From: Nitrospira sp. LK70
Lineage (GTDB): Bacteria > Nitrospirota > Nitrospiria > Nitrospirales > Nitrospiraceae
DNA length: 48,973 bases
Assembly (NCBI GenBank): GCA_011090425.1
Contig: PHGD01000021.1
Coordinates: 1-48,973, forward strand
Reading direction: 5' to 3'
In this document: positions 1,155 through 18,422 of the stretch, piece after piece
How the letters are laid out: each line of letters opens with the position of its first letter
Position numbering within the stretch: the stretch's first letter is position 1
The notes under the pieces: model-generated
What the model was told of the DNA's origin: nothing
Databases searched by the model: none
What the model saw: the letters and a program-made list of their open reading frames with translations, nothing else
Position numbers and translations under genes: made by a program

Positions 1155-1385
1155 ATGGCACATCAGCTGAAGCGACTCTCCGTAGCACTCGACCATCGAC
1201 TGCTGGCCGAGGCGCGGCGATTGACTCGCTCCCGAAGCAAGCGAGCCACGATCGCCAAAGCGCTTGAGGAGCTGGTGAAGCTACAGCGTCGTAAGGCGTT
1301 GGCTCACTCCCTGGGTACTGGCGTGTTCGAAACCACTGAGGCCGAATTTCGTTCTCGCCGCCGTCGTACACATGCCCGCCGTTGA
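1155..1385 (+). CDS. VapB-type antitoxin
   Basis: A 76-residue basic protein starting at ATG 1155. Residues 1-45 (KRLSVALDHRLLAEARRLT, then SRSKRATIAKALEELVK) match the short ribbon-helix-helix-like VapB antitoxins of the DUF2191/VapB type, in which a beta strand and two helices bind operator DNA and the C-terminus wraps the toxin. Its end overlaps the toxin gene by 14 bases (1372-1385), the usual coupling of such pairs. The palindrome over the upstream -10 box is the likely operator. The very basic tail (SRRRRTHARR) comes from the overlap region. The pair looks intact, unlike its neighbours. Confidence 0.8.
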   Translation: MAHQLKRLSVALDHRLLAEARRLTRSRSKRATIAKALEELVKLQRRKALAHSLGTGVFETTEAEFRSRRRRTHARR

Positions 1386-1791
1386 CCTCGACCCACGTCT
1401 CGTCGACACCAGCGTCTGGATTCGCGCCGACCGAAAAGGCCATGAGACCCTCAGAGATCGGCTCAAGGAATTGCTCGTTGCCGATTTCGTCTCGATTTGC
1501 TGGCCGATTCGAGCCGAACTGCTTATCGGTGTCAAAACGCCGGAACGGTGGGAGATCCTTGATGAACAACTGGCAGCGCTGGAACAGGTGTCGATAACGG
1601 AGTCGACGTGGTCGCGGGCTGCTCGCTTGGGGCACATGCTTGCGAGAAAAGGACAAAGCGTTCCGCTGCCGGATCTTCTGATCGCGGCCACGGCGCTTCT
1701 CCAGGGCCTTACACTCTGGACTGTAGATAGCGATTTTAAACGAATCGCCGCAGTGGCGCCGCTGGATCTCGACATATTCGGAACAGCGTAG
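1372..1791 (+). CDS. VapC-type PIN-domain toxin
   Basis: A 139-residue PIN-domain ribonuclease. Visible motifs are LVDTSVWIRAD near residues 10-20 (first acidic residue), RAELLIGV near 46 (Glu), PLPDLLIAATAL near 102 (Asp) and LWTVDSDFKRIA near 117 (Asp). The four acidic positions that hold Mg2+ or Mn2+ are all present. VapC toxins cleave tRNA or rRNA until bound by VapB. The start overlaps the antitoxin's end by 14 bases, so translation is probably coupled. Full length for the family. Confidence 0.88.
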   Translation: MPAVDLDPRLVDTSVWIRADRKGHETLRDRLKELLVADFVSICWPIRAELLIGVKTPERWEILDEQLAALEQVSITESTWSRAARLGHMLARKGQSVPLPDLLIAATALLQGLTLWTVDSDFKRIAAVAPLDLDIFGTA

Positions 1792-1800
1792 CTTATGGTT

Positions 1801-1917
1801 TGCTCTCCATCTGGGCATCCCACGCTGAAGCCTCTCATCAGCCAGTTGACGTAACAAACCAAGAAAGCCGATCCGGGCCAGTGTGATCAAGGGACTTGCA
1901 TCGAGAACGAGAATCAC
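1801..1917 (-). pseudogene. PIN-domain toxin (DUF3368-like), N-terminal fragment
   Basis: On the minus strand, GTG 1917 opens a frame reading ILVLDASPLITLARIGFLGL then LRQLADERLQ, the start of a DUF3368-type PIN toxin. Similarity ends about 40 residues in; the frame stays open only as a long shadow of the opposite genes. The start codon shares bases with the stop of a 33-codon reading frame (1914-2015), the arrangement seen between UPF0175 antitoxins and DUF3368 toxins. The intact VapC gene ends 10 bases before this remnant in the opposite direction, which suggests replacement or rearrangement. Confidence 0.5.
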
Positions 1918-2015
1918 GCGGGTTGAGGAGGCGGCGAAGCGGCAAATGTCCGCAGATCGTCACGAAGGGTCTCTGCGGAATAGTCAAACCAGAGAGAAGT
2001 CATGGGGCCAGGCAT
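1914..2015 (-). pseudogene. Possible antitoxin remnant upstream of the PIN fragment
   Basis: A short frame from ATG 2015 (second ATG at 2003) reads MPGPMTSLWFDYSAETLRDD and ends TGA at 1914-1916, overlapping the GTG of the PIN fragment. Its position fits the C-terminal end of an antitoxin, but it is too short to assign and has no good ribosome binding site. It is listed because the overlap with the toxin remnant is exact. Confidence 0.25.
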
Positions 2016-2150
2016 GAGTAGTGACTTATTCCGGAGTCTCATTGCTCTTCTCCATCGCAATGGGCGCAAGGCATGGCGCTTTCGAGTACCCGTTGTTCGG
2101 TGCAGGCAACGGGTGGACCGTCGTGAGTCGTCATCAACAATGCGGACTCA

Positions 2151-3392
2151 TCAAAACGTTTCATCCCCGGTCGGCTCATAGTGCGGCACCGCGTTCATGT
2201 CGTGTCGCAACTTCGATAACTCGAAATACATGCGGCGCCGGGCTCGGCTTTGATTGCCGAGCGGGCGGTGCTCGGCGATGCAGTGCCACGGGTTGTAGGA
2301 GAGCCGTCGTCCGAACGCGATCTGCGCCGGCGAGTCGAACTTCTGCTTGGGGATGCGCAAGGTGGCCACCGAGACGCGGGGCGACAGCCGCTCCGGCCAC
2401 AGCACCGCATTGTTTTCGAGCGGCATCAGATGAGGATCGGTCTGCAATTGCAGGCGAATGTCCAGCTCGACATCGCCCTGATTGAGCGCGGTGATCATGG
2501 CTTGACGCAGGTAGTCATCAGGCGGCCGCAGCGGCAGACGCGGGATCGGGGTTTTCTGGTTTGATGTAGGCCACACCGAATATTGCATCGCCTGCCCTTC
2601 TCCTAACAGATAGGGCACACAACTGAAGTACGGCGCCTCGAATGGACTGCTCTGCGTCTTGATCCACAGTCCCTGCATGATGAAGTCCAAAAGGTGGGGA
2701 CGGCGAAGATTAAAAAAGTAGTACATCTGCGCATTCTTCAGGCTCTCAAGCTGCAACTGAGCGTTCGCGCGTGTGTCCGGTGTGACAAAGGTCGGCGTGG
2801 ATACGCCGAACATGTCCTGCGTGAACTTCTCTTCCTCCATCAATTTGGGACCGGGAACTCCCATCAGCTTGATGCTGATGCTCATGAACCCTACATCGTC
2901 GATGTCCGGCGTCACGTAGGGGCCTGGGCCGGAAAAGCGGACCCATGCGCGATAGGTCTTGGGTTGCGCGTAGATGCCGTGCCGGAACTGCGGCGGCAGG
3001 CCGTCGTGGACGATGAACTCCGCACGCACGATGCCGTGAGTCTTAGTATTTCCGCCTCGTTCGAATCCGCCCGGCTTCCACAGCCCGCGCATCTGCTTCT
3101 GGAACGAATCGATGATCGATTGAAGCGAGGCCTCTTCGTCCGGTTGGATCCTTTCCTCGGCGATCTTCAGTCTTTCGTTCGGGCGCTGCCAGTTGATCAG
3201 CGCGGTGGTCATGCGCGCGACCGGGTCTCGCAGCACCGCGTCGAAGGGCGGACGCATCCAGGGGTCGATGCGTCGCTGCAGTTGCACCAGCCGCAGTGAT
3301 GTATCGCTGATCCAATTCAGGACTGCCGAACCCGTATCGGCAGGCGGCACCGGGCGGCTCGTCATTGAGCCCAACACGTTCCGTTGCATCAC
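2151..3392 (-). CDS. Catalase-family heme protein (y4iL-like)
   Basis: A 413-residue protein of the catalase-related y4iL-like group. Family marks are KTHGIVRAEFIVHDGL near residues 117-132, whose His119 fits the distal histidine, and the C-terminal AFGRRLSYNPWH, where R362-x3-Y366 fits the RxxxY proximal heme ligand pattern. It then continues AEHRPLGNQSRARR. There is no signal peptide, so it is probably cytoplasmic or carried by a partner. Related proteins are thought to bind heme and use peroxides, but the substrate is unknown. The gene starts inside the stop of the DyP gene (overlap 3389-3392) and is the last gene of the six-gene operon. Confidence 0.8.
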   Translation of the reverse strand: MMQRNVLGSMTSRPVPPADTGSAVLNWISDTSLRLVQLQRRIDPWMRPPFDAVLRDPVARMTTALINWQRPNERLKIAEERIQPDEEASLQSIIDSFQKQMRGLWKPGGFERGGNTKTHGIVRAEFIVHDGLPPQFRHGIYAQPKTYRAWVRFSGPGPYVTPDIDDVGFMSISIKLMGVPGPKLMEEEKFTQDMFGVSTPTFVTPDTRANAQLQLESLKNAQMYYFFNLRRPHLLDFIMQGLWIKTQSSPFEAPYFSCVPYLLGEGQAMQYSVWPTSNQKTPIPRLPLRPPDDYLRQAMITALNQGDVELDIRLQLQTDPHLMPLENNAVLWPERLSPRVSVATLRIPKQKFDSPAQIAFGRRLSYNPWHCIAEHRPLGNQSRARRRMYFELSKLRHDMNAVPHYEPTGDETF

Positions 3393-4912
3393 AACCCCTT
3401 TGAATGTGTCGTCGCGATGTACCGCAAGGTGCGAATACCTGGCAGGAAAAAGTAGGCGCCGCCTTGCACGGTGACGAACTGCGGCAACCTGTTCAAGCGG
3501 CGATCCGGCCCATCGGCTTGCGGAATTGAGAATCCATCAGTGGGGGAGTCTCCCGGGTCCGGCAATCGATGGCCGAGCAGTGGATCTCTTTCGCCGGTGA
3601 GACCGTCAAATTTACTCCCGATCACCCACGCGCTTTGCACAAACTCGAACTGACGCTTGATATTGGCCACAAGGCAGATGAAATGGAGCCCGGTCTCTGT
3701 GCCGGGCGAGGATTGCGTCGCGGACAGCGCTGGCGTCACGTCTGTACCGAATGTTCGTCCACGGCGAAGCAGGCGATGAAAGCGTGTCGATGCGACCAGA
3801 TCTTGATGTCGCGCCGTTGCGTTGAATCCCAACATGCGCCACAGGCGCGAGAGGAGTCCCGGCGGACCGGGTGGCAAGTCTGCATTGCGCGGATTCACGC
3901 GTCGGATGTGGGCGCCCAACGGGCAGCGCAGCCCTCGCGGATCGGCTTCGTACGTGAAGTCATTCAGTTTCAATCGCTGCGCGGGATCGTTGCCGGCGAC
4001 TGAGTCCTCGCTTAGCGCGACCAGAGGTTCGCCGTTTTTCTTCCGGCCAACCATCGCCTCGGCTAGTCGCTCGCGCAAGTCCACATCACCGTCCGCTTGC
4101 CGGTTCAGTTCGCTCCAGAAGCCTTGCACGTCTTGCTGAAGTTGACGCAACACGAGATAGCAGCCGTTGCGTCCGAGGTCGGCTTGGTCCGGCGCGTCTT
4201 CGGCTTTCGGCAGCAGAGCATCGGGGTCACGCCGTGGAGTAAGCAGCGGGCGCGCGGTATAGAGCCCGTATTCGTTGGGATAGCCGAGCAGGAACTCGCC
4301 GAGGCAACTCACGTTGCTGTACTCGAGCTGGTCCTGGTCGCGCACCGGGCGCTTGCGCTCCCAATCAATTTGCGGTTGCGAAATGCCGTCGGCGAATCCA
4401 AACGGCTCCATGCCATGTAAATCGGATGTCGACAGACGTTCGATGCGCACGAATCCGGCCCCGCATTGCGCTTCGATCTCCTGTTCCCATGCCGTCAGTT
4501 GCCCTGAACGGGCATACAGAAGCACGGCGACGTGCGGCATCCGGTTGCCGGTGCCCCATTTCCAACCGCTTGGATCATTGGCGCCGATATCTCCCAGACG
4601 GCGCGCGCGTGCGGCGTCGCTCGCCATGCCGGCGACGAATTCGGCTGAAAACTGCGCGAGCAGGTCTGGGGCGACCTCCAATGCACGCAGTCCTTCGCTC
4701 GTGAATGCGACGTGGAGTGCGGTCTCGGGCAGTGGATCGGCCTTGACGGCGCTCGTTACCGGCGCCTGCGCCAGCCACGTACGCGCCGCGGCCGGATCCT
4801 TGACGCGCAGGAGGAGAAAACAAGCTTCCGTCAGGTGCTTGTACCCGAACCGTATCAGACCCTGAACGTCGTCCAGTTCCACGGCCCTGCCCTGACTCAG
4901 GATTTCGTTCAT
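3389..4912 (-). CDS. DyP-type peroxidase family protein
   Basis: A 507-residue protein with the DyP signature. GFADGISQP at residues 172-180 contains the GxxDG motif with Asp175, the acid-base residue for peroxide cleavage. PLGAHIRRVNPR near 331-342 supplies His335 as the likely proximal heme ligand, with arginines beside it. DyP enzymes oxidise bulky phenolic or dye-like substrates with H2O2. It is longer than most DyPs (about 300-450 residues) and lacks a Tat or Sec signal. Both ends overlap neighbours by 4 bases, so its expression is tied to the membrane protein before it and the catalase-like protein after it. The physiological substrate is unknown. Confidence 0.85.
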   Translation of the reverse strand: MNEILSQGRAVELDDVQGLIRFGYKHLTEACFLLLRVKDPAAARTWLAQAPVTSAVKADPLPETALHVAFTSEGLRALEVAPDLLAQFSAEFVAGMASDAARARRLGDIGANDPSGWKWGTGNRMPHVAVLLYARSGQLTAWEQEIEAQCGAGFVRIERLSTSDLHGMEPFGFADGISQPQIDWERKRPVRDQDQLEYSNVSCLGEFLLGYPNEYGLYTARPLLTPRRDPDALLPKAEDAPDQADLGRNGCYLVLRQLQQDVQGFWSELNRQADGDVDLRERLAEAMVGRKKNGEPLVALSEDSVAGNDPAQRLKLNDFTYEADPRGLRCPLGAHIRRVNPRNADLPPGPPGLLSRLWRMLGFNATARHQDLVASTRFHRLLRRGRTFGTDVTPALSATQSSPGTETGLHFICLVANIKRQFEFVQSAWVIGSKFDGLTGERDPLLGHRLPDPGDSPTDGFSIPQADGPDRRLNRLPQFVTVQGGAYFFLPGIRTLRYIATTHSKGL

Positions 4913-6210
4913 AGCAACCGCAACCAGGCCTCAGCCTGCGTATCAGTCACCTGCGCAAGCTCCAGCCCTTCCCTGATGCGCTGGTTGCGCTTGAGGTCGA
5001 CCAGGGCCAGGCCCGGGTAGGCCCTGTACCAGATCTCTGTCGGCAACTGATGCCGCCGCTGGTAGTTCTTGAACTTGTTTTCAATGCGTGCGCCGCGCGC
5101 GACCAGCCAACGAGTGCGTGGCCAGCCCACGCCGTGGCTAAAAGCGAGATTCAGGCCCCACGCCACCTTGTTGATGAAGTCGTCCATGTAGGCCTCGTGG
5201 CCGCCGTCATAGTTGCTGGTGAAGACGAGCCGGCGCTTGTCATCGAGAAAGGCCCAGAACGCAAAGTGAATCGTCTGCACGCGTGCGAGAAAACCGCGCG
5301 TGAAGACATGGCGACAGGTATAGTCGATCAGCACCAACACCACCGCCACGAGCCAGCGGCGAAACAGCCCCGGCTTGACCGAGCCGAACGCCGTGTACTG
5401 GTTGGTCACGTCGTAGTCTTCCAGCTGTTGCAATTCCAGCAGCGCCGCGCCGTCCGGGGGCGGGCAGATTTCGGCATCGGTGCTCTCTTTCGTGCGCAAG
5501 ATGACGATCAAGAGCGGCGACAGGACAATCAGAAACGGTAATAGGATTAGGCCCGCCAGGGGAATCGCAACGAGATGGAGGAGCTTTGCGATTTGCCAGC
5601 GCAGTGGTGTCGGATCCGGCGGCGTCAGGCCAAGCCTTCCGGCGCTGACTTCAGCATCGACGAAGTCGATCAACTCGCGCCGGAGTTGCTGCGCTTGCCT
5701 GGCCGATGCGAGCGGCGCGCGCGGCACTTTCGCGGCGAGAGCACGTTGCAGAGCGCTTTCCTCCTTGACTTGCCGTACCGTGCGACCGACCCAGTTGATG
5801 TAGTTGGCAGCGAGTCGATGCTGATGCGCTTGCATCCAGGGTAGTAGATCATCATCCGCGTCGAAGCCGTCGCAATGCATGAAAACTCGGCGCAGGCCCG
5901 TAGCTGCCCGCCCTGCCAGATCCGCGATGCACTCGTCTGCCGATCCGTCACAGCTGCCGATAAACGCAAGGTAGACGGGCAGGCTCGGGCGCGGGATACC
6001 GATGTCGCCGAGCGTAGGATCATCCAGCACCACCAGCCGAGCAAAATGCAGCCGTTCGAACTGCCCGAACGGCAGGACCGCGTTCGTCGGGTCGGCCATA
6101 CCAGGCTTCGAATTCATCGTCTTCAGCAGTTCCCGCAGACCCTGTTCCCGGCCTGGCGTGACCTGTGCCACCAGCATGAATTGGGACTGCGGAGTCACGG
6201 CATCACCCAT
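4909..6210 (-). CDS. Uncharacterised membrane protein of the DyP/catalase-like operon
   Basis: A 433-residue protein I cannot name. Residues 10-110 alternate strand and helix (FMLVAQVTPGREQGLRELLK, then FERLHFARLVVLDD and PVYLAFIGSCDG), resembling a dimeric alpha-beta barrel half such as is found in DyP proteins. Residues 207-238 form a strongly hydrophobic hairpin (LLHLVAIPLAGLILLPFLIV onward), giving one or two membrane helices. A further hydrophobic stretch is near 285-300. The C-terminal half has conserved-looking polar blocks such as VFTSNYDGGHEAYMDDFIN. It overlaps the DyP gene by 4 bases. It may anchor or feed the two heme enzymes at the membrane; this is inferred from position. Confidence 0.7.
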   Translation of the reverse strand: MGDAVTPQSQFMLVAQVTPGREQGLRELLKTMNSKPGMADPTNAVLPFGQFERLHFARLVVLDDPTLGDIGIPRPSLPVYLAFIGSCDGSADECIADLAGRAATGLRRVFMHCDGFDADDDLLPWMQAHQHRLAANYINWVGRTVRQVKEESALQRALAAKVPRAPLASARQAQQLRRELIDFVDAEVSAGRLGLTPPDPTPLRWQIAKLLHLVAIPLAGLILLPFLIVLSPLLIVILRTKESTDAEICPPPDGAALLELQQLEDYDVTNQYTAFGSVKPGLFRRWLVAVVLVLIDYTCRHVFTRGFLARVQTIHFAFWAFLDDKRRLVFTSNYDGGHEAYMDDFINKVAWGLNLAFSHGVGWPRTRWLVARGARIENKFKNYQRRHQLPTEIWYRAYPGLALVDLKRNQRIREGLELAQVTDTQAEAWLRLL

Positions 6211-6234
6211 CTCGTGACACTCTTGGCCATCGAG

Positions 6235-8178
6235 TTATCCATGATGCGCTCCCATTGCTTCAGTCGACTCATGACTCAGTGGTAAACAAGCCGGCAAGGT
6301 GTCATAGTCCTGCCGAAGTAAGTTTTCTGGAAGGAATGTTACGCCCCGTTTCTGCTGAATCGCAACCACTGCTGCCTTACGAAGCGTCTGCAAATCAGGA
6401 TGACGTTTCCACTCATCGGGACTAATTCGGTGATGCAAGAGATGCATGGCCGGCGGCATCGGCGCTTCCAGCTGTTCTGGGCCGGCCATGTCCCACATGC
6501 TTAGCCGCACGAAGATCCGATCGGCACATTGCTCTAAATTGGCCTCGACCTCGGTGGGAGACCCATGCAGAAAGTTCGGAGGGAAGCTGTCCGTTCCATG
6601 ATGACAAGCACCACAATACCGGTGTAACAGGTTGTGTTCGCCTGTCAGCGAAGCCTCCGACGCTGCACCTGTTGAGTGATGGGAGGCAACCTCGTCGTCC
6701 ACCGGCGGCGGCATGTCGCGATCATCCAGACAGCAACGAAGGGTTACCGGGGCTCCTAATTGCCGATCAAGTGCAGCCAATAATGTCACACGGCGGAACG
6801 GCTGGTTGGCGAACGCATCGGTTCGGCCCATCAAGGTGTTTTGCGCTACGGCGCGTACCATCTGTTTGAGCCGCTCAGGCTGCCGATGCGCCAGGCGGTT
6901 CAGTCGATGGAGATCAGCCTTGGTGAAGAACTGCGCAAAGGTGCTCAGTACTCGCTCGATTGTCTGTGGAGTATAGGGGACGGTCCATACCTCAAGCGGT
7001 TCGCGAGGTAAGGTAGGCTCGTGCGGCCCGCGAAACAGGGACCGTGGTTCTCTTCCCTCAAGAGCGGTCGCTTCCACCTCACTGAGACCGGGGAACTCGC
7101 TCACTGCGACATACCGAAAGGGGTTGCGATTGGGAATATCCGGATTGGGAATGGCCAATCCATGCGGCCAGTGCGCACGCCATGCGACAAGAAAAGAGGG
7201 TGGCTCGACAGAGTCCTCGCTGGCTTGCCGATCCTGGCCCAATTTCTTAGACAGCGCATATCGAAGTACCCACTCGATCAGTTCGGCTCGACAGCTGATC
7301 GACTGCTCCGGTCGACCGGCCTGTTCACATCCCTCGCGCCAGAGCAGCTGGGCCAGCGAAATCTCATTGGCTCGATCAGTGGCATCATCGAAGGCTTGAA
7401 GCACTCCCACTCCTTGTCGAACGGGAAAGCCGTGATACTGACGACGTTGATGGACAAGCAGGGCGGCGATCTTGGGATTCACGTTGGTTTCGTCCCACAT
7501 GGGGCGGGAAAAGATGGGGCTCTGATTTTGATGACAGGCGGTGCAGAGCGCACGATTGGCGTACCGCACGGTCGGCGTTCCACCGGCACGATAGTCATCG
7601 ACAATCTGGAACTCGAACCGGCCCGCCGCCTCGTTATAGCTGATGATCTCCAATACAGCGGTCTTTTCATGGTAACCGACGAAGAGCCGATCTTTGAGAT
7701 GCATGCCCGATAGACCCAAGGTCGAATCCGCTTCTGTATCGACGGCGAGCACAGCTCGCGGATAGGTAAAGAATGCTCCGTCGCCGGCTCGTCGTTGCAG
7801 CGAGCGATTGACGGGAATCAGCAATCGTTTAAGAGCCGACGCTGTACGTTCGGAGTGGAGTTGAGATTCGATTCGAGCTGCCAGAGCGGGAAACGGAAAG
7901 GGAATGTCGTAGACTTTTTTCCTGCTCACGTTCTTTGTAATAAGGAAATCAAACAACGATCGCCCGATCGGCGGGAGGTTCGTCCCAGGTTCGATCGGAT
8001 CAACAACCCATGGAGGTACTGCCGAATCACGAGATACCGGGGTAGTTGGTTCCGCATAGGGAGTAGCCGCAGTGCTGTAGGACAGCTCCGCATCCTGGCG
8101 GCCACATCCTGAAACACACACAGTCGTCATGAGCAGGCATCCCATGGCAGTTGCCCACCGTCTCGTCATCCGTGTCAT
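6235..8178 (-). CDS. Di-heme c-type cytochrome lipoprotein
   Basis: About 647 residues from ATG 8178; a TTG at 8205, overlapping the previous stop, is an alternative start. A signal sequence (CLLMTTVC) ends in the lipobox VSGC, so it should be a lipoprotein. Two CxxCH heme c sites are visible: CTACHQNQSPIF near residue 212 and CGACHHGTDSFPPNFLHG near 522. The spacing of about 310 residues suggests two cytochrome domains in one chain. Other features are not specific enough to name a substrate. It lies 24 bases before the membrane-protein gene and close behind a lipoprotein gene, so it belongs to the same transcription unit. Confidence 0.75.
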   Translation of the reverse strand: MTRMTRRWATAMGCLLMTTVCVSGCGRQDAELSYSTAATPYAEPTTPVSRDSAVPPWVVDPIEPGTNLPPIGRSLFDFLITKNVSRKKVYDIPFPFPALAARIESQLHSERTASALKRLLIPVNRSLQRRAGDGAFFTYPRAVLAVDTEADSTLGLSGMHLKDRLFVGYHEKTAVLEIISYNEAAGRFEFQIVDDYRAGGTPTVRYANRALCTACHQNQSPIFSRPMWDETNVNPKIAALLVHQRRQYHGFPVRQGVGVLQAFDDATDRANEISLAQLLWREGCEQAGRPEQSISCRAELIEWVLRYALSKKLGQDRQASEDSVEPPSFLVAWRAHWPHGLAIPNPDIPNRNPFRYVAVSEFPGLSEVEATALEGREPRSLFRGPHEPTLPREPLEVWTVPYTPQTIERVLSTFAQFFTKADLHRLNRLAHRQPERLKQMVRAVAQNTLMGRTDAFANQPFRRVTLLAALDRQLGAPVTLRCCLDDRDMPPPVDDEVASHHSTGAASEASLTGEHNLLHRYCGACHHGTDSFPPNFLHGSPTEVEANLEQCADRIFVRLSMWDMAGPEQLEAPMPPAMHLLHHRISPDEWKRHPDLQTLRKAAVVAIQQKRGVTFLPENLLRQDYDTLPACLPLSHESTEAMGAHHG

Positions 8179-8197
8179 GTCGTGACCGATCAGACAT

Positions 8198-9115
8198 TCA
8201 TTCAAGGGGTTCCGTTAACCGGGCATGTTGGGTGCCTGCCTTGTTGGGCATTGCCGTCATGCGCTGATTGCCGATCCAACAGTCCTCGTTGACTGTCCCG
8301 GATCCGACAAACGACGAAGATTCCTTGTCCGCCACCGCCTTATTGTAGAGGGTGAAGTTCAAGGCAAAGACCTTTTTGATGTAGGCTCGTCCCAGATAGA
8401 ACCCGGGATGAACCATGCGAATTTCGTCGCGGATCTCCAATCCTTCCCGCCCGGCCAGCACATCCGGCATCTCGCGGTAGCCAGGCACATCGTCTGTAAA
8501 GGCATAGTCGATGATGACGGATTCTCGGCGTCCGTCCAGCAGGCTCTGGCCACAATAGAGCTTCGCGGGGAACAGGAGCCAGGCATCCTTGCCGTCCACA
8601 TCGAGTTTCTTGATCTTCTCGACGTTCGGACCGACGATCGGCTTGAGAAGGACCAGATCCTCGATGCGATTACGGAGCAGCCCTTCGCTGCGATAGAAGA
8701 CTTTCCCTTTCCAGATGAATTCGCCGATATGCTGGAGTGTGGCCGCTTTGCGGTCGACGAGGAATCCTCTGATGCCTCCTCCGACGATTTCGGCCAGGCG
8801 GGCCCGTTCGCTTGATCCCTTCGGAAAAAACATTTGCCCATCGTACACCCCGTCCGGGATCGGGCCGGCCGTCAGGCGAGCATAGATCTGATCGACCTGT
8901 TCCTGCGTGGCGCCCTTGAGATTATCCGGCGTGATCTTCATGAGATCGGCCGGTGTGAGGGGTGACTCGTGCTCCAACCGGGCAAAATCAACCTTGTCGG
9001 AGTATTGCTCGCCGCTCCGGGCAAACGGAATCGGCGGCGGCTCTGGGTTGCAGCCGAGGAGAACAGCTTGGCTCACCATCAAGCCGACCGACATCAACCA
9101 TCCTGCCTGTTTCAT
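8198..9115 (-). CDS. Exported lipoprotein, function unknown
   Basis: The best start is ATG 9115, preceded by GAGGTGA at good spacing; an upstream ATG at 9145 overlaps the previous stop but would bury the signal peptide. The 305-residue product begins MKQAGWLMSVGLMVSQAVLL with lipobox LLGC (Cys22). No CxxCH is present. The mature part is rich in charged residues with blocks such as GVYDGQMFFPKGSSERARL and AYIKKVFALNFTLYN. I do not recognise a family. Placed between two di-heme cytochrome genes, it may be a structural or docking partner of the exported redox proteins; that is an inference. Confidence 0.65.
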   Translation of the reverse strand: MKQAGWLMSVGLMVSQAVLLGCNPEPPPIPFARSGEQYSDKVDFARLEHESPLTPADLMKITPDNLKGATQEQVDQIYARLTAGPIPDGVYDGQMFFPKGSSERARLAEIVGGGIRGFLVDRKAATLQHIGEFIWKGKVFYRSEGLLRNRIEDLVLLKPIVGPNVEKIKKLDVDGKDAWLLFPAKLYCGQSLLDGRRESVIIDYAFTDDVPGYREMPDVLAGREGLEIRDEIRMVHPGFYLGRAYIKKVFALNFTLYNKAVADKESSSFVGSGTVNEDCWIGNQRMTAMPNKAGTQHARLTEPLE

Positions 9116-9144
9116 CGTGATCACCTCTTCACAGGGTTTGTGCA

Positions 9145-11577
9145 TTAGAGTGTCGCGAGGAATGCTGTCAGCGCATCCTTCTCTGTATCCGAGAGATCCT
9201 CGCCGAATCGGTGCCCGTCGTTTTCGATGACTGCGAGACTGTTGCTGTAGACCTTGCGCAATTCCGCTCCAGCCTCAAGGACTGATCCCGGCTTCTCGAG
9301 TAGCTCCTTTCCCTTTTCTTGGATCGTCTTGGCGATCTGTTCGCCCTCTTCCGCTCCATAGCGACCGACGTATTTGGCCTTCAGCTTGTCAACGTCCACC
9401 CGCGCCATGACGAGATCTCCCACCAGTTCCTTGTGGCGAAAGTTCCCGATGCGCGCAGCCGGCGTGCCGACTGGGAAGCGAATGGCCGTGTCGACAAAAC
9501 GCTCCAGTTTGCCGTCGCCCAGCTTCGGGAACAGCCGGATGGTCACCTCGGAATTGAATCCGGTCACCTTTGGAATTCGTTGAGCAGGGTTAAGTAACTC
9601 TTTCATCGATGCTTTGTAGAGCTTGAATCGTCCTTCCACGCTAGGATCGAATATCCAACAGGGTGGAGGGGAGGCCAGCGGTTTCCCATCTGTATCGACA
9701 TATGATGAGTAGTAGTGCTCATCTAAGGGACCACCGCAGACTTCAGGGCCCACGGCGTTGTTGTGCATGAATGGAGCGTAGGCCCAGAGGCTGAGGAGTG
9801 AGATGTTGCGATAATAGCCCCGTCCTCCGTCTGAGGGTTCCTTGAGCTGTGGATCGCCGGGCTTCGCCCGCAAGGTTTCAGAGCCGTACTCTTCCCAGAC
9901 GTGGCCCTGCATGTGATTGGAATGGAGGGATCGCGAGCGGTTCGTCCCGACCTCGCTTACAGGGATGACCTTGTCGTTCCCGAGCCAATCGATGCGGATG
10001 CCTTTGTCCTTAGGATCTGTGGAGACCGTTCGAAAATCTCGATTCTCGAACGGTGGGCTCTGGCTGGAATGGCATGAGGCGCATTTGCTCGCGAAAATCA
10101 GGCGACCCTGCTCAACTGCGCCTTTCCCGAATTCCTTATTGAGCTGTTCGACGAGCACGGCGTTGTTCTTCAACCCACGGGCTTGATACAGGTCGGCCGG
10201 GGCTCCGGTAGACAAGAACTGAGCGATTTCGCCCAAGCGATCCTCAATCGCACGGAATTGTGGACAGTCCCGGCGAACCTGTCCGATGTCGAACGGCGTC
10301 TGCCCGAACCCACGCATCGTAGGATCGAACTGCCGCATATCCGTGAGATGATTGACCCACCCTTCCTCCGAGCAACTGCCGATGTTGAAGTAGACGCGTT
10401 GAATGGCCTCGATGGTGCCGATACTGTCTTCTCCGCCTTTCAGGATGTGGTGGACGAACTCTTTCTTGCGGCCCCTCTCCCAACACTTGCCGTCCTTGCC
10501 CGGTTCACACCAACAGGTCCGCTCGTCTTCGCCGGCCGGACACTGCTTGGTCTTGCGCCACTTGATGATGTCTTCTTCGAACGTCGGTCGCTTGGCCAGG
10601 TTGATGATCGCGTTCATCGTGCCGGCGTTGTTGACCTGATCGTTCGGAATCGCCGAGGTATCGACCGCACCGGGGCGCGAATGCCCGTAGATTTGGTACT
10701 CAATGGTGTTCGGCGCCATTCCCGATCCCAAGATCTGCGCGAATCGGCCATACTGATTGCCGACTGTGCCGGAGAGATTCTCCCATTTCGGATGGATCGG
10801 ATCTTTGGGAGGACGGATCGGATCGAAGGCAATATGGCAGGCACCGCAGGACATGCCGATACGATAGGGTGGCTCGATCGAGCCGTCGACCAGATGACTC
10901 TTGGCGGGCGCTTCACGGTCCTTGCGCGGCACCACTTTGGCCGTATAGCCGTCCCACGAGTCCAGATGTCCGCCGTTGATTTTGAGCCATTTCACCTTGT
11001 CGAACTTGGGATTAGGGAACTTTCGGAGGCCCAGTGCACCGGTGGACGTTCCGAATTCAAGGTCGCAGGCCGACTGGCGAAAATCTTTTTGACCGTGCGT
11101 GTCATCCTTGGCAAGCGGCACGTCCTGCAGATCGCAGGCAGGATCCCGATACCCGCTCTTCCCGACATACTTGAGCAGTTCGTCGTCGCCTGGACAGAAG
11201 TCGAAACCGTAGGTCTCGTCATAGCTCTTGGCCGGACAGTGGGGATCGCCCGGCTTACAACAATCCGGATCGTTGATCAGACCCCATCGATGGAAGCGCG
11301 CGTCGCGTGCATCGCTTCGCAAGACCCGATACCAATCGATCATGACACCGAGCCGCTGCTGATAGACGTAGGTAAAGAAGCGAGCGTTGCCGGCTGTGGC
11401 GTTGAACCAAATCTCCGCTCCAACCAGCTCGGCATCCGTCAGGTGCTTGCCATAGTGAAATGGTGAAGGGGCTGGCTTGCCGCTTGCCGCGACAGCCGTT
11501 CCTTCCGCCAGGACCACATACCCTGTGAGTAAGGCCAAACCGAGAGTGAGTGTGAGTACGGTTTGTATCCGTCGCAT
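9145..11577 (-). CDS. Exported di-heme c-type cytochrome
   Basis: From ATG 11577, 8 bases after GGAGG, the product is about 810 residues. A Sec signal (MRRIQTVLTLTLGLALLTGY) ends near AVAA. Two heme c sites are CGACHIAFDP near residue 244 and CASCHSSQSPPFENRDF near 499. The protein is unusually rich in extra cysteines (for example DPDCCKPGDPHCP and CPAGEDERTCWC), which may form disulfides. The second heme domain resembles the MauG/cytochrome c peroxidase and RoxA-like di-heme group, but I cannot assign a reaction. It is the first gene of the six-gene heme operon and follows a plausible promoter at 11670-11698. Likely periplasmic. Confidence 0.78.
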   Translation of the reverse strand: MRRIQTVLTLTLGLALLTGYVVLAEGTAVAASGKPAPSPFHYGKHLTDAELVGAEIWFNATAGNARFFTYVYQQRLGVMIDWYRVLRSDARDARFHRWGLINDPDCCKPGDPHCPAKSYDETYGFDFCPGDDELLKYVGKSGYRDPACDLQDVPLAKDDTHGQKDFRQSACDLEFGTSTGALGLRKFPNPKFDKVKWLKINGGHLDSWDGYTAKVVPRKDREAPAKSHLVDGSIEPPYRIGMSCGACHIAFDPIRPPKDPIHPKWENLSGTVGNQYGRFAQILGSGMAPNTIEYQIYGHSRPGAVDTSAIPNDQVNNAGTMNAIINLAKRPTFEEDIIKWRKTKQCPAGEDERTCWCEPGKDGKCWERGRKKEFVHHILKGGEDSIGTIEAIQRVYFNIGSCSEEGWVNHLTDMRQFDPTMRGFGQTPFDIGQVRRDCPQFRAIEDRLGEIAQFLSTGAPADLYQARGLKNNAVLVEQLNKEFGKGAVEQGRLIFASKCASCHSSQSPPFENRDFRTVSTDPKDKGIRIDWLGNDKVIPVSEVGTNRSRSLHSNHMQGHVWEEYGSETLRAKPGDPQLKEPSDGGRGYYRNISLLSLWAYAPFMHNNAVGPEVCGGPLDEHYYSSYVDTDGKPLASPPPCWIFDPSVEGRFKLYKASMKELLNPAQRIPKVTGFNSEVTIRLFPKLGDGKLERFVDTAIRFPVGTPAARIGNFRHKELVGDLVMARVDVDKLKAKYVGRYGAEEGEQIAKTIQEKGKELLEKPGSVLEAGAELRKVYSNSLAVIENDGHRFGEDLSDTEKDALTAFLATL

Positions 11578-11669
11578 GACCATGTCCTCCTCCGTCCTTA
11601 TGAGCACCGTTCAGGCGCTGTCGGTGCTCACCAGCGAAGCCTTCGGCATCCAGCGAGCTCTTGAACGTG

Positions 11670-11698
11670 AGAGTACCGAGGCATGTACGTAGAGTCAA
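11670..11698 (-). promoter_or_regulatory. Predicted sigma70 promoter of the heme-protein operon
   Basis: On the minus strand TTGACT (11698-11693) and TACTCT (11675-11670) are 17 bases apart. They lie about 90 bases upstream of the first cytochrome start and point into the operon. The match is reasonable but unproven. Confidence 0.45.
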
Positions 11699-11931
11699 CG
11701 AGCAAGTAGCTTGCCTAGGGGTGTATCGTAGCGAGTCGTCAAATCTGTGAAGATTGTGAGTGAATGCCCGCGGCAAGCGCCAAAGTAGTATCTGATTGGA
11801 TACCGAGTAGGATCAGAAAGGATACAGTGGATAGGGTCTTTGGCTCGTGAGTTGATGCCTCTCGTGCAGGATGCTCGTCTGTAAAGAAGAGGATACCGAA
11901 ATTGCCGGCTATTAATTCAGAGGACTGTTTC
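11699..11931. other. Intergenic region between divergent units
   Basis: This is the core of the 440-base gap between the cytochrome operon (minus) and glyQ (plus). I see no coding frame with family similarity, no strong hairpin and no T-box-like leader for the glycyl-tRNA synthetase genes. Promoter-like boxes sit at each end. Confidence 0.5.
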
Positions 11932-11961
11932 TTGACAGGCGAAAAGCATTCTTGCTAGCTT
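11932..11961 (+). promoter_or_regulatory. Predicted promoter of glyQS
   Basis: TTGACA at 11932-11937 is followed 18 bases later by TAGCTT at 11956-11961. It is on the correct strand about 57 bases before the GTG start of glyQ. The -10 box is weak. Confidence 0.45.
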
Positions 11962-12017
11962 GGCGATCGTTTCCCAAACGTACGCATCGGTTCTTTCCCC
12001 AACCGGGCTGTATCTCC

Positions 12018-12911
12018 GTGAATTTTCAAGACCTTATTCTCGCCCTCCATCGTTTCTGGGCCGATCAGGGCTGTGTCGTTCATCAACCCTATGATGTGGA
12101 GATGGGTGCAGGGACGTTTCATCCGGCCACGTTCTTGCGATCACTCGGACCGGAACCATGGCGGGCGGCCTATGCGCAGCCCTGCCGTCGTCCGACTGAT
12201 GGCCGCTATGGCGAAAACCCCAACCGTCTCCAGCACTATTATCAGTACCAAGTCGTGCTGAAGCCGTCACCGGACAATATTCAAGAGCTGTATCTAGAAA
12301 GTCTGGCCCGGCTGGGGATCAATCCCAAGGAGCACGACATTCGCTTCATCCAAGACGATTGGGAGTCGCCGACCCTGGGGGCCTGGGGGCTTGGGTGGGA
12401 AGTGAGACTGGATGGGATGGAAATCACTCAGTTTACTTACTTCCAGGAGATCGGCGGGATTGAACTGGCTCCGATCACGGGCGAAATCACGTACGGCACG
12501 GAGCGCATCGCCATGTATCTGCAAGAGGTGGACAACGTGTTCGACCTGGCCTGGACGGACTCGATCAAGTATGGCGATATTCACCATGAAACTGAGGTGC
12601 AGGGGTCGCGGTACAACTTCGAGGAAGCGGACGTCAGCATGCTCATGCAAGCGTTCCAGGCGAACGAAGCCGAGTGCAAACGATTGCTCGCACAGGCCGA
12701 CAAGCGCTTGACCTTGCCCGCTTACGACTATTGCATCAAATCATCGCATGCGTTCAATCTCTTGGATGCACGCGGCGCCATCAGTGTCGCGGAACGGACC
12801 GGTTACATTGCGAGGGTGCGGGCGCTGGCGAGGCAATGTGCCGAGCGTTATATCGAGGAGCGGGCCGCGATGGGGCATCCACTCATGAGGATGCAGGTGC
12901 TGCCTCGATGA
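12018..12911 (+). CDS. glyQ: Glycyl-tRNA synthetase alpha subunit
   Basis: This is the catalytic subunit of the bacterial alpha2beta2 glycyl-tRNA synthetase, which charges tRNA-Gly with glycine using ATP. The 297-residue product starts at GTG 12018 with [20 protein letters not shown], the standard GlyQ beginning; an in-frame TTG further up would add a foreign-looking extension. Hallmarks include [19 protein letters not shown] and [20 protein letters not shown] (class II motif 2 region). The C-terminal motif 3-like region is [18 protein letters not shown]. No good Shine-Dalgarno precedes the GTG. The stop overlaps the glyS start by 4 bases, so the two subunits are translationally coupled. Confidence 0.97.
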
Positions 12912-15653: not shown

Positions 15654-18422
15654 GTGGCAAAGAAATATGTCTACTATTTCGGCGACGGCAAAGCCGAGGG
15701 TACGTCGAACATGAAGGAACTGCTCGGCGGAAAGGGCGCGGGATTGGCCGAGATGACCAATTTGGGTATCTCCGTCCCACCGGGCTTCACGATTACGACC
15801 GAAGCCTGCATCGAATACTACAAACAAGGCAAGAAATATCCGCCTGGAATGTGGGAGGCGACGTTAGCCGCCCTGAAGCGCGTGGAGCGGTCGATGGGGA
15901 TGGGGTTCGGCAATCCTGAGAAGCCGTTGCTGGTGTCCGTGCGGTCCGGCGCCCGCGCATCGATGCCCGGGATGATGGACACGGTACTGAATGTGGGCCT
16001 CACGCTGAAGACGGTCGAGGGGCTTGCCGCCAAGACGAAGAACGAGCGGTTCGCCCAGGACAGCTATCGTCGTTTCGTCACGATGTTCGGCAACATCGTC
16101 ATGGGGGTGCCTCGCGAACACTTTGAAGCCATCCTGAACCACAAGAAAGAAGAAATGGGCGTGGCCCACGAGACACAATTGGACGGGGGAGTCTTGCGGG
16201 ACCTTGTCGGACGATTCAAGTCGTTGGTGAAGGAGGAGACCGGGAAGGATTTCCCGGATGATCCAAACGACCAACTGCGGATGGCGATCAACGCGGTGTT
16301 CTCGTCGTGGAACGGTGCGCGCGCCATTACCTATCGAAAGCTCAACGGCATTCCGGACCATTGGGGCACCGCAATCAACGTGGTGGCGATGGTGTTCGGC
16401 AACATGGGCGACACCAGCGGGACCGGTGTGGCGTTCACCCGCGATCCGAATACCGGCGAGCACAAATTCTTCGGCGAGTGCCTGATGAATGCTCAGGGCG
16501 AGGACGTCGTGGCCGGCATCAGAACGCCGCTGCCGGTCACTGCCCTTGCGAAGAACGTCCCGGCCGCCTACAGGGAGCTCGAACAGACCTATAAGAAGCT
16601 TGAAAAGCATTACCGAGACATGCTCGACCTGGAATTTACGATTCAGGAGGGCAAGCTCTATATGCTGCAAACACGCGTCGGAAAGCGGACCGGCATCTCG
16701 GCGGTTCGTATCGCCGTCGAAATGGTGAAAGCAGGACTGATCACGAAGCGCGAAGCGGTGCAGCGGGTCGGCCCCGATCAGCTGGCACAGTATCTCTATC
16801 CCATCTTCGACTCACAGGTGGAGTCCGGTTCGACCCCGCTGGGCAAAGGATTGCCGGCCGGTCCCGGTGCGGCGGCGGGCAAGATCGCGTTGACGCCGGA
16901 CCGCGCGGTCGAGATGAAAGCAGCCGGTCAACGTGTCGTGCTGGTCCGCGAAGAAACCAGCCCGGACGACATTCACGGCATGAACGCGGCAACCGGCTTT
17001 TTGACTGCACGCGGCGGGATGACGTCGCATGCGGCGGTGGTGGCACGGCAGATGGGCAAAGTCTGCGTGGCCGGCTGCGAAGCAGTGCAAGTGATCGACG
17101 CTCAATCGGTGCGGATCGGCGCGAAGGTGTTTCACGAAGGGGACTATATCTCCGTCAACGGGTCGACGGGGAACGTCTACGACGGCGATGTGCCGGTGGT
17201 GGAGTCGGAAATCATTCAAGTGGTGCAAGGGAAGCTGGATGCCAAGCAGTCGCCGAAGTATCAACTGTTCGCGACGTTGCTCTCGTGGGCGGACGGTGAA
17301 CGCCGGTTGCGTGTCCGGGCCAACGCCGACGTACCGGACCAGGCCAAGATTGCGAGAGGATTCGGAGCGGAAGGCATCGGCCTCTGTCGGACCGAACACA
17401 TGTTCTTTGCCGAAGATCGTATTCCGATCATGCAGAAGATGATTCTGGCGCGGACCAAAGAAGAACGCGAGAAGTACTTGGATCAACTCCTGCCGCTGCA
17501 GAAGCACGATTTTGTCGGGCTCTATCGGGAGATGCAGGGATACCCGGTCACGATTCGTCTGCTTGATCCGCCGCTCCACGAGTTTTTGCCCAAGCGCGAA
17601 GAATTGATGGTGGAGATTGCGCAGCTGGAATTGACTGAGCATGACGGGGCCAATCTTGAGGAGAAGCGCCGTTTGCTGGCCCGAGTGGAAGAACTTTATG
17701 AATTCAACCCCATGTTGGGTCTTCGTGGATGTCGATTGGGCATCACAATGCCGGAAATCACCCGTATGCAGGCGAGGGCGATCATGGAGGCGGCTTGCGA
17801 ATTGGCGAAGGAAGGCAAGAAGATCGTGCCGGAGGTCATGATCCCGCTTGTCGGCATGGTCTCTGAAATGAAGTCGCAGAAAGATCTCGTGAAAGAAGTC
17901 GCCCAGGAGACGATGAAGCGGTATGGCGTCAAGTTGAGTTACCTGGTCGGCACGATGATCGAGTTGCCGCGCGCGGCGGTGACGGCCGATCGGATTGCGC
18001 AGGAGGCGGAGTTCTTCTCGTTTGGGACGAACGACCTGACTCAGACGACGTTCGGCTTTTCACGCGACGATGCAGCCAAGTTCATCGATTTCTATAAGAC
18101 CGAGAAGATCATGGACTCGGATCCCTTTGCCGTGCTCGACCGCGAAGGCGTCGGTTTGCTGATGAAACAGGCGATCGAAGGCGGGCGCAAGACAAGGTCT
18201 GATCTCAAGCTCGGCATTTGCGGGGAACATGGCGGCGATCCCAGTTCCGTCGAGTTCTGCCATCAATTGGGATTGGATTACGTCAGCTGTTCCCCCTTTC
18301 GTGTGGCGATCGCGAGGTTGGCGGCGGCGCAGGCAGCCATCGCGGAATCGAGTGCAAAGCCGGCAGGGAAAAAGGCTCGGACGGCGCGCAAGCCGTCGAC
18401 CTCACGTCGCAAGAGACGGTGA
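15654..18422 (+). CDS. ppdK: Pyruvate, phosphate dikinase
   Basis: PPDK interconverts pyruvate, ATP and phosphate with phosphoenolpyruvate, AMP and pyrophosphate, a gluconeogenic step needed by autotrophs running a reductive TCA cycle. The start is GTG 15654 after AAGGAGAAG; the 922-residue product begins AKKYVYYFGDGKAEGTSNMK. The ATP-grasp region has LVSVRSGARASMPGMMDTVL. The swivelling domain carries the phospho-histidine in GGMTSHAAVVAR (about His459), and the C-terminal PEP barrel has GICGEHGGDPSS with the catalytic cysteine (about 856). The last 24 residues form a Lys/Arg-rich tail (GKKARTARKPSTSRRKRR) not usual for the family. The stop overlaps the ribD start. Confidence 0.97.
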   Translation: MAKKYVYYFGDGKAEGTSNMKELLGGKGAGLAEMTNLGISVPPGFTITTEACIEYYKQGKKYPPGMWEATLAALKRVERSMGMGFGNPEKPLLVSVRSGARASMPGMMDTVLNVGLTLKTVEGLAAKTKNERFAQDSYRRFVTMFGNIVMGVPREHFEAILNHKKEEMGVAHETQLDGGVLRDLVGRFKSLVKEETGKDFPDDPNDQLRMAINAVFSSWNGARAITYRKLNGIPDHWGTAINVVAMVFGNMGDTSGTGVAFTRDPNTGEHKFFGECLMNAQGEDVVAGIRTPLPVTALAKNVPAAYRELEQTYKKLEKHYRDMLDLEFTIQEGKLYMLQTRVGKRTGISAVRIAVEMVKAGLITKREAVQRVGPDQLAQYLYPIFDSQVESGSTPLGKGLPAGPGAAAGKIALTPDRAVEMKAAGQRVVLVREETSPDDIHGMNAATGFLTARGGMTSHAAVVARQMGKVCVAGCEAVQVIDAQSVRIGAKVFHEGDYISVNGSTGNVYDGDVPVVESEIIQVVQGKLDAKQSPKYQLFATLLSWADGERRLRVRANADVPDQAKIARGFGAEGIGLCRTEHMFFAEDRIPIMQKMILARTKEEREKYLDQLLPLQKHDFVGLYREMQGYPVTIRLLDPPLHEFLPKREELMVEIAQLELTEHDGANLEEKRRLLARVEELYEFNPMLGLRGCRLGITMPEITRMQARAIMEAACELAKEGKKIVPEVMIPLVGMVSEMKSQKDLVKEVAQETMKRYGVKLSYLVGTMIELPRAAVTADRIAQEAEFFSFGTNDLTQTTFGFSRDDAAKFIDFYKTEKIMDSDPFAVLDREGVGLLMKQAIEGGRKTRSDLKLGICGEHGGDPSSVEFCHQLGLDYVSCSPFRVAIARLAAAQAAIAESSAKPAGKKARTARKPSTSRRKRR

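Follow-up and report, generated by a model that had tools for sequence, protein, structure and literature searches.

RoxA-type enzymes oxidise polyisoprene (PMC6311187), the PA2077 protein of Pseudomonas aeruginosa oxygenates oleate (PMC4496055), and hydroperoxides of fatty acids are the substrates of catalase-related allene oxide synthases (PMC5617202). Here we describe a six-gene locus of Nitrospira sp. LK70 that combines putative relatives of such proteins with a DyP-type peroxidase. It lies in contig PHGD01000021.1, positions 1 to 48,973 (the window, i.e., the whole stretch of 48,973 nucleotides that was analysed), which is part of a 4.7 Mb genome. The six open reading frames, p1 to p6, are all on the minus strand and span 11583-2151. 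From sequence comparisons we see just under an even chance that these genes represent a widespread oxygenase-peroxidase module, of which they are one copy, with a role in both forming and processing (hydro)peroxides of unsaturated hydrophobic compounds; fatty acyl chains or isoprenoids are the likeliest of these. The component families are known, and their combination appears to be undescribed in the open-access literature searched. The genes are as follows:

9145-11583, minus strand: p1, exported di-haem c protein, placed in the RoxA/RoxB/CytoC_perox superfamily by weak but consistent matches (811-813 aa)
8198-9115, minus strand: p2, calycin-like lipoprotein according to its AF2 model, with lipobox LLGC (by inspection)
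6235-8178, minus strand: p3, di-haem c lipoprotein of 647 aa with two CxxCH motifs and lipobox VSGC (by inspection)
4909-6210, minus strand: p4, predicted membrane-anchored tandem ABM-fold protein (AF2 model, hydropathy)
3389-4912, minus strand: p5, DyP-type peroxidase (TIGR01413, PF20628, 8re3)
2151-3392, minus strand: p6, putative y4iL-type catalase-fold protein (similarity to y4iL, PDB profile match to 1u5u)

A scan for p4, with one genome per species, yielded 171 relatives, and 80 loci were retrieved. The counts below describe the neighbourhoods, with flanks of 10 kb, of the 56 p4-selected loci flanked on each side by at least 8 kb. The p4 loci came from at least seven phyla, as judged from the record titles, and were distributed over Nitrospirota, beta- and gammaproteobacteria, Acidobacteriota, Verrucomicrobiota, Myxococcota, Actinomycetota and Thermodesulfobacteriota. 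The module was present in ammonia oxidisers, methanotrophs, Variovorax and Acidobacteria as well as in Nitrospira, and was carried by assemblies of Nitrosomonas europaea and Variovorax paradoxus. A DyP gene was found in all 56 neighbourhoods, a p2-type gene in 55/56, a p6-type gene in 55/56, a RoxA-like gene in 48/56, and a GMC oxidoreductase gene in 41/56. All eight loci without a RoxA-like gene carried an animal haem peroxidase gene (PF03098, E 2.5e-68 in a representative), so that one or the other was present in 56/56, and therefore two unrelated oxygenase families stand in for one another. Known members of the animal haem peroxidase family include cyclooxygenase-type fatty-acid dioxygenases, and the exchange suggests that the shared need is for a haem oxygenase. 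In six animal haem peroxidase loci (L049, L074, L083, L085, L086 and L087) a second p6-type gene stood between the peroxidase gene and p2. Two Nitrosovibrio loci had an animal haem peroxidase gene close to the module in addition to a RoxA-like gene, one encoding a protein of 539 aa (L050:16050-17666, PF03098 E 2.5e-41) and the other located near 16006 (L073).

Gene order and strand varied among the p4 loci, most of all in Acidobacteriota. Other Nitrospira and one gammaproteobacterium (L079) shared the exact p1-p2-p3-p4-p5-p6 order, with identities of 44-60%, and in two Nitrosovibrio both halves of the locus (p1-p3 and p4-p6) lay within the same 20 kb. Most proteobacterial loci had a more distant RoxA-like gene, with a GMC oxidoreductase gene in place of p3.

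Whole genomes were also searched separately for p4 and for RoxA-like genes, with seeds excluded and only strong matches counted; family names of the clades were inferred from the seed records. Among 150 Burkholderiaceae genomes, p4 was found in four and a RoxA-like gene in four, all shared (Fisher p 4.9e-8). In one Acidobacteriota family 8/8 p4 genomes were among the 15 with a RoxA-like gene (n=149, p 1.3e-9), in Nitrosomonadaceae 16/17 among 18 (n=99, p 2.2e-15), and in Nitrospira 4/4 among the eight with p1 (n=34, p 1.5e-3); these Fisher values overstate independence, the species being related, and the four clades agree. An earlier, sequence-only reading of the window had joined the six genes into one system, and that they belong together is upheld by a linkage that recurs across phyla. 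At the superfamily level the two halves were not independent, with all 56 loci and the correlation in four clades in agreement. The exact six-gene set did not hold to the same extent, as p1-p3 occurred without p4-p6 in 4/9 Nitrospira genomes and p3 was often replaced in proteobacteria.

We then consider the individual proteins. The p1 protein has a Sec-like signal (by inspection), two CxxCH motifs (H249 and H504), a C-terminal axial-type histidine (H790), and a MauG-type motif, PFMHNN. C245/C248/H249, C500/C503/H504 and H790 were invariant in 26/26 p1-family homologues. The sequence PFMHNNAVG may correspond to the MauG motif PYxHNGSVP, and the motif histidine was found in 7/26 homologues, with leucine in 16/26 and glutamine in 3/26. 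In profile searches p1 matched NF040606 (E 1.5e-7, 31 bits, curated cut-off 150) and RoxB (E 1.7e-7, 30 bits, curated cut-off 900), and its best PDB match was RoxA (4b2n), also weak. Hence p1 is weakly but consistently assigned to the RoxA/RoxB/CytoC_perox superfamily. A search of 14 named control genomes with NF040606 gave no match above cut-off. The two exported di-haem c proteins of the sequence-only reading were thus recovered as p1 and p3, each with two CxxCH motifs, the former with its Sec-like signal and the latter with a lipoprotein-like N-terminus. No Pfam family matched p3 above cut-off, its homologues were found in eight loci only, and a plasmid search gave no match.

The p5 protein is a DyP with intact active-site Asp, His and Arg, as judged from alignments. 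It matched PDB entry 8re3 (E 1.1e-42), PF20628 (28.1 bits, cut-off 20), and TIGR01413 (E 4.8e-23, 82 bits, cut-off 100.5), and it lacks a signal peptide. D175 of the GxxDG motif was kept in 74/74 homologues, and H335 (GAHIRR) and R383 (RRG), positions assigned via alignment with DyP structures, in at least 97%; the GxxDG motif and proximal histidine read earlier from the sequence are therefore present and conserved. The residue before GLxF was considered as the distal arginine, which would make p5 inactive, and was rejected, as DyP2 and Alr1585 also have no arginine there.

For p6, which also lacks a signal peptide, a search of Pfam, including Catalase (PF00199), gave no significant match, and y4iL of NGR234, with which p6 shares 34% identity, matched PF00199 below cut-off (E 1.8e-4). 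Homologues annotated as "catalase family protein" cover ~80% of p6 at ~30-35% identity. A p6 profile found only two PDB entries, both of the coral allene oxide synthase protein, the better of which was a weak match (1u5u, E 0.0022 over 60 residues). T118-H119 and Y366 are present in the window copy. Across 73 p6 sequences, T118 was kept in 73/73 and H119 in 42/73, and positions 119/366 were Gln-Tyr in 28, His-Met in 17, His-Tyr in 12 (including the window), His-Ile in eight, His-Phe in four, and other in four. The RxxxY motif pointed out earlier is likewise real in the window copy and not conserved, its arginine being kept in 13/73. Classical catalase was rejected as a function for p6, since the His/Tyr pair in only 12/73 sequences leaves it unsupported for the family and a Pfam match is absent. 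Judging from these residues, haem binding by the p6 family outside the window's clade is uncertain.

The earlier description of a membrane protein of no known family holds for p4, which has one hydrophobic segment of 38 residues (205-242, by hydropathy) and matched neither Pfam nor NCBIfam, nor anything significantly in a sequence-profile search of the PDB. Its AF2 model (pLDDT 87) has two ABM-type ferredoxin-like domains flanking the hydrophobic segment. Fold comparisons for p4 and p2 are those listed by Foldseek and VIA, and other folds are possible. Among the matches listed, the best for p4 was WhiE-ORFI (9lmn, Z 13.4, root-mean-square deviation 3.8, 220 residues across both domains); the polyketide decarboxylase 9ltx also matched (Z 10.7). 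In the model the domains pack as a single unit, therefore both are probably on the same side of the membrane and p4 looks monotopic. On three alphaproteobacterial plasmids, single proteins of ~1400-1620 aa (L005:4778-9640, L006:4814-9145 and L007:4814-9085) all align to p4 and p5; those of L005 and L006 contain P450 and DyP domains by Pfam, and that of L007 is annotated as cytochrome P450.

The lipoprotein of the sequence-only reading is p2, the N-terminus of which is indeed lipoprotein-like. Homologues of p2 beside p4 in other loci have 26-61% identity. The AF2 model (pLDDT 76) contains a beta-barrel domain at approximately residues 56-261 and resembles a calycin-like barrel; among the matches listed, the closest was Tcur_1030 (4mve, Z 10.2, root-mean-square deviation 3.2, 138 aligned). 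A sequence-profile search of the PDB found nothing significant for p2.

Within Nitrospira, the four genomes that have p1-p2-p3 without p4-p6 carry, after p3, two other di-haem proteins in tandem (L109:5639-8707, and at the equivalent place in L110, L111 and L112), and those of L109, the one genome scanned for domains, contain the RoxA-like domain PF21419. In two of these four genomes a glyQ-like gene was seen by inspection immediately upstream of p1 on the opposite strand, as in the window. The GC content is 60-62% for p4-p6 vs 57-58% for p1-p3, and in a tree Nitrospira p4 was nested among proteobacterial sequences (98 support, for the enclosing group of 22 rows). Thus p4-p6 look like genes acquired from a proteobacterium and added to p1-p3, a native locus next to glyQ, and on this simplest account they displaced, or never coexisted with, the two alternative RoxA-like cytochromes. 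Alternatively, p4-p6 may have been lost from the other Nitrospira genomes. Two Nitrospira genomes (G018 and G012) have a second, diverged pair of p4-like and DyP-like genes elsewhere in the genome (L117:8272-11649 and L118:8152-11232), and both also carry the main module.

Taken together, the best explanation of these comparisons is a haem-dioxygenase pathway rather than a simple H2O2 detoxifier. Oxygenation of lipids or isoprenoids is favoured because of RoxA-type and allene oxide synthase chemistry, and because patatin-like phospholipase, alpha/beta hydrolase, GMC and P450 genes or fusions accompany the module or its relatives. We infer the substrate, the order of steps, the compartments and any haem in p6 as follows. 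Exported p1, partnered or fed with electrons by p3, would act outside the inner membrane, inserting O2 at a double bond of its unsaturated lipid or isoprenoid substrate. The calycin-like p2 could carry the hydrophobic product at the membrane. On the inner side the peroxide would then be reduced or rearranged by membrane-anchored p4 together with p5 and p6, the last possibly working in the manner of a catalase-related allene oxide synthase or hydroperoxide lyase and not as a catalase. In a broader form, which we regard as possible and put forward tentatively, an undescribed pathway of several phyla would use interchangeable haem dioxygenases of the RoxA type or animal haem peroxidase type to feed lipid or isoprenoid hydroperoxides to a fixed p2-p4-DyP-catalase-like core with a specific product, for example an oxylipin that serves as a bacterial signal, or a membrane lipid in modified form.

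Several observations weigh against the oxygenase-peroxidase module. The p1 protein is far under the NCBIfam cut-offs for RoxA, RoxB and CytoC_perox. The haem residues of p6 are not conserved, so that it may not be such an enzyme. Lipid binding by p2 is suggested by matches of its model to fatty-acid-binding proteins and lipocalins that are weak (Z 4-5), and the closest folds of p4, among the matches listed, are polyketide-type enzymes. A patatin gene was near only 6/56 p4 loci, and no GMC, patatin or P450 gene was found near the window's locus within the region examined. No close homologue of the module proteins with a known substrate or activity was found, and fatty-acid and isoprenoid substrates are indistinguishable here.

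The sequence-only reading had suggested an envelope-spanning pathway for peroxide or electron transfer. In a rival explanation of this kind, exported cytochrome c peroxidases would be fed by the respiratory chain, and the DyP and catalase-like proteins would remove H2O2 in the cytoplasm. Such a defence fits the membership of p1 in the di-haem cytochrome c peroxidase superfamily, the intact active site of p5, and the frequency of the module in aerobic nitrifiers and methanotrophs. However, the loss of the catalase His/Tyr pair from most p6 homologues is at odds with it, the constant RoxA-like or animal haem peroxidase gene and the frequent GMC gene would be unexpected for an H2O2 scavenger, and the module genes are missing from most members of each sampled clade. 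We consider it rather unlikely. The suggested peroxide chemistry is supported in part, although the families favour oxygenation of lipids or isoprenoids over the handling of H2O2; envelope-spanning electron transfer is conceivable but not evident, as signal peptides are missing from p5 and p6, and p4 looks monotopic with its two domains on one side.

Equally doubtful is a role in the catabolism or scavenging of isoprenoids or rubber-like polymers from the surroundings: a RoxA-type enzyme would cleave them outside the cell, and the GMC protein and peroxidases would oxidise the resulting aldehydes or ketones inside. The RoxA/RoxB matches of p1, its exported location, and PF21419 in the two alternative Nitrospira partners are consistent with this, but p1 scores far under the RoxA cut-offs, autotrophic nitrifiers would gain little, and clustering of neighbouring genes showed no consistently recurring transport or other catabolic family. 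Biosynthesis of a secondary metabolite, with p4 and the peroxidases tailoring a polyketide-like or aromatic compound, is quite improbable: the matches of the p4 model to WhiE-ORFI and 9ltx and the P450-p4-DyP fusions of alphaproteobacteria agree with it, but no large synthase-type gene recurred in the neighbour clustering, in which neighbours were only partly identified by family.

The layout of the locus agrees with the earlier description of a minus-strand array with short gaps and overlaps, as confirmed by the positions of the reading frames. Gaps of 29, 19 and 24 bases separate p1/p2, p2/p3 and p3/p4, and exact 4-base overlaps join p4/p5 and p5/p6. The start of p2 is most likely at 9115, the alternative being an ATG that overlaps the p1 stop at 9145. 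A promoter claimed at 11670-11698 was unsupported, with 0 sigma-70-type sites in 1900-12000 (3.6 expected by chance), and a scan for terminator-like sites at the p3/p4 junction (6210-6235) found none. Directly downstream of p6 is a PIN-domain (VapC-like) gene on the plus strand (window 1372-1791, PF01850 E 1.8e-15), and the alternative cytochromes of L109 are likewise followed by a PIN gene (8731-9153, minus strand). Upstream of p1, the divergent glyQ-like reading frame is at window 11952-12911 on the plus strand; the same divergent arrangement was seen in L110, L111, L113 and L114 (all by inspection).

The statement of the sequence-only reading that no system of such composition has been described stands, as none was found in the open-access literature on combinations of the components or on y4iL. 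In plants, animals and fungi, oxygenated lipids serve as major signals, and few cases are known in which bacteria produce them; the module hints at a poorly known way in which bacteria may make and process lipid peroxides, and its conservation makes the association more than an oddity of a single genome. One of the closest known systems is the P. aeruginosa oleate-diol synthase operon (PA2077 10S-DOX/PA2078, FadCcp; PMC4496055), which likewise has exported RoxA-like di-haem proteins and oxygenates a hydrophobic unsaturated substrate, as would the module by analogy. For that operon, here set beside p1 without alignment, no DyP, catalase-like, ABM or calycin-like partner has been described. With RoxA/RoxB (PMC6311187, 4b2n), p1 shares the two CxxCH haems, the C-terminal axial-type histidine and a putative MauG-type motif, and the equivalent of RoxA F317 is also Phe (F430, by alignment to 4b2n). 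It differs in falling far below the family cut-offs and in its gene partners, and the module homologues mostly have Leu or Gln for the MauG-motif histidine and, in half, Ile at the F317 position.

The window copy of p6 shares the distal Thr-His pair (T118-H119) and the tyrosine (Y366) of the coral catalase-related allene oxide synthase/hydroperoxide lyase (1u5u). However, the match is weak, the distal Asn is not evident, there is no lipoxygenase fusion, and Tyr or His is lost in 61/73 p6-type sequences. In the y4iL cluster of pNGR234a, which consists of genes for a putative catalase, a hypothetical protein, a di-haem cytochrome c peroxidase and a patatin, the p6 homologue adjoins a CytoC_perox protein and a patatin-like phospholipase; unlike in the module, neither DyP nor p4 was detected in this stretch. 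A conserved set of this kind would point to a partner and a substrate that DyP peroxidases may have in the cell, a question that has long been open. Compared with 8re3, DyP2 and AauDyPI, p5 shares the active-site Asp, His and Arg and differs in its conserved operon with p4 and p6 and in the long insert between H335 and R383.

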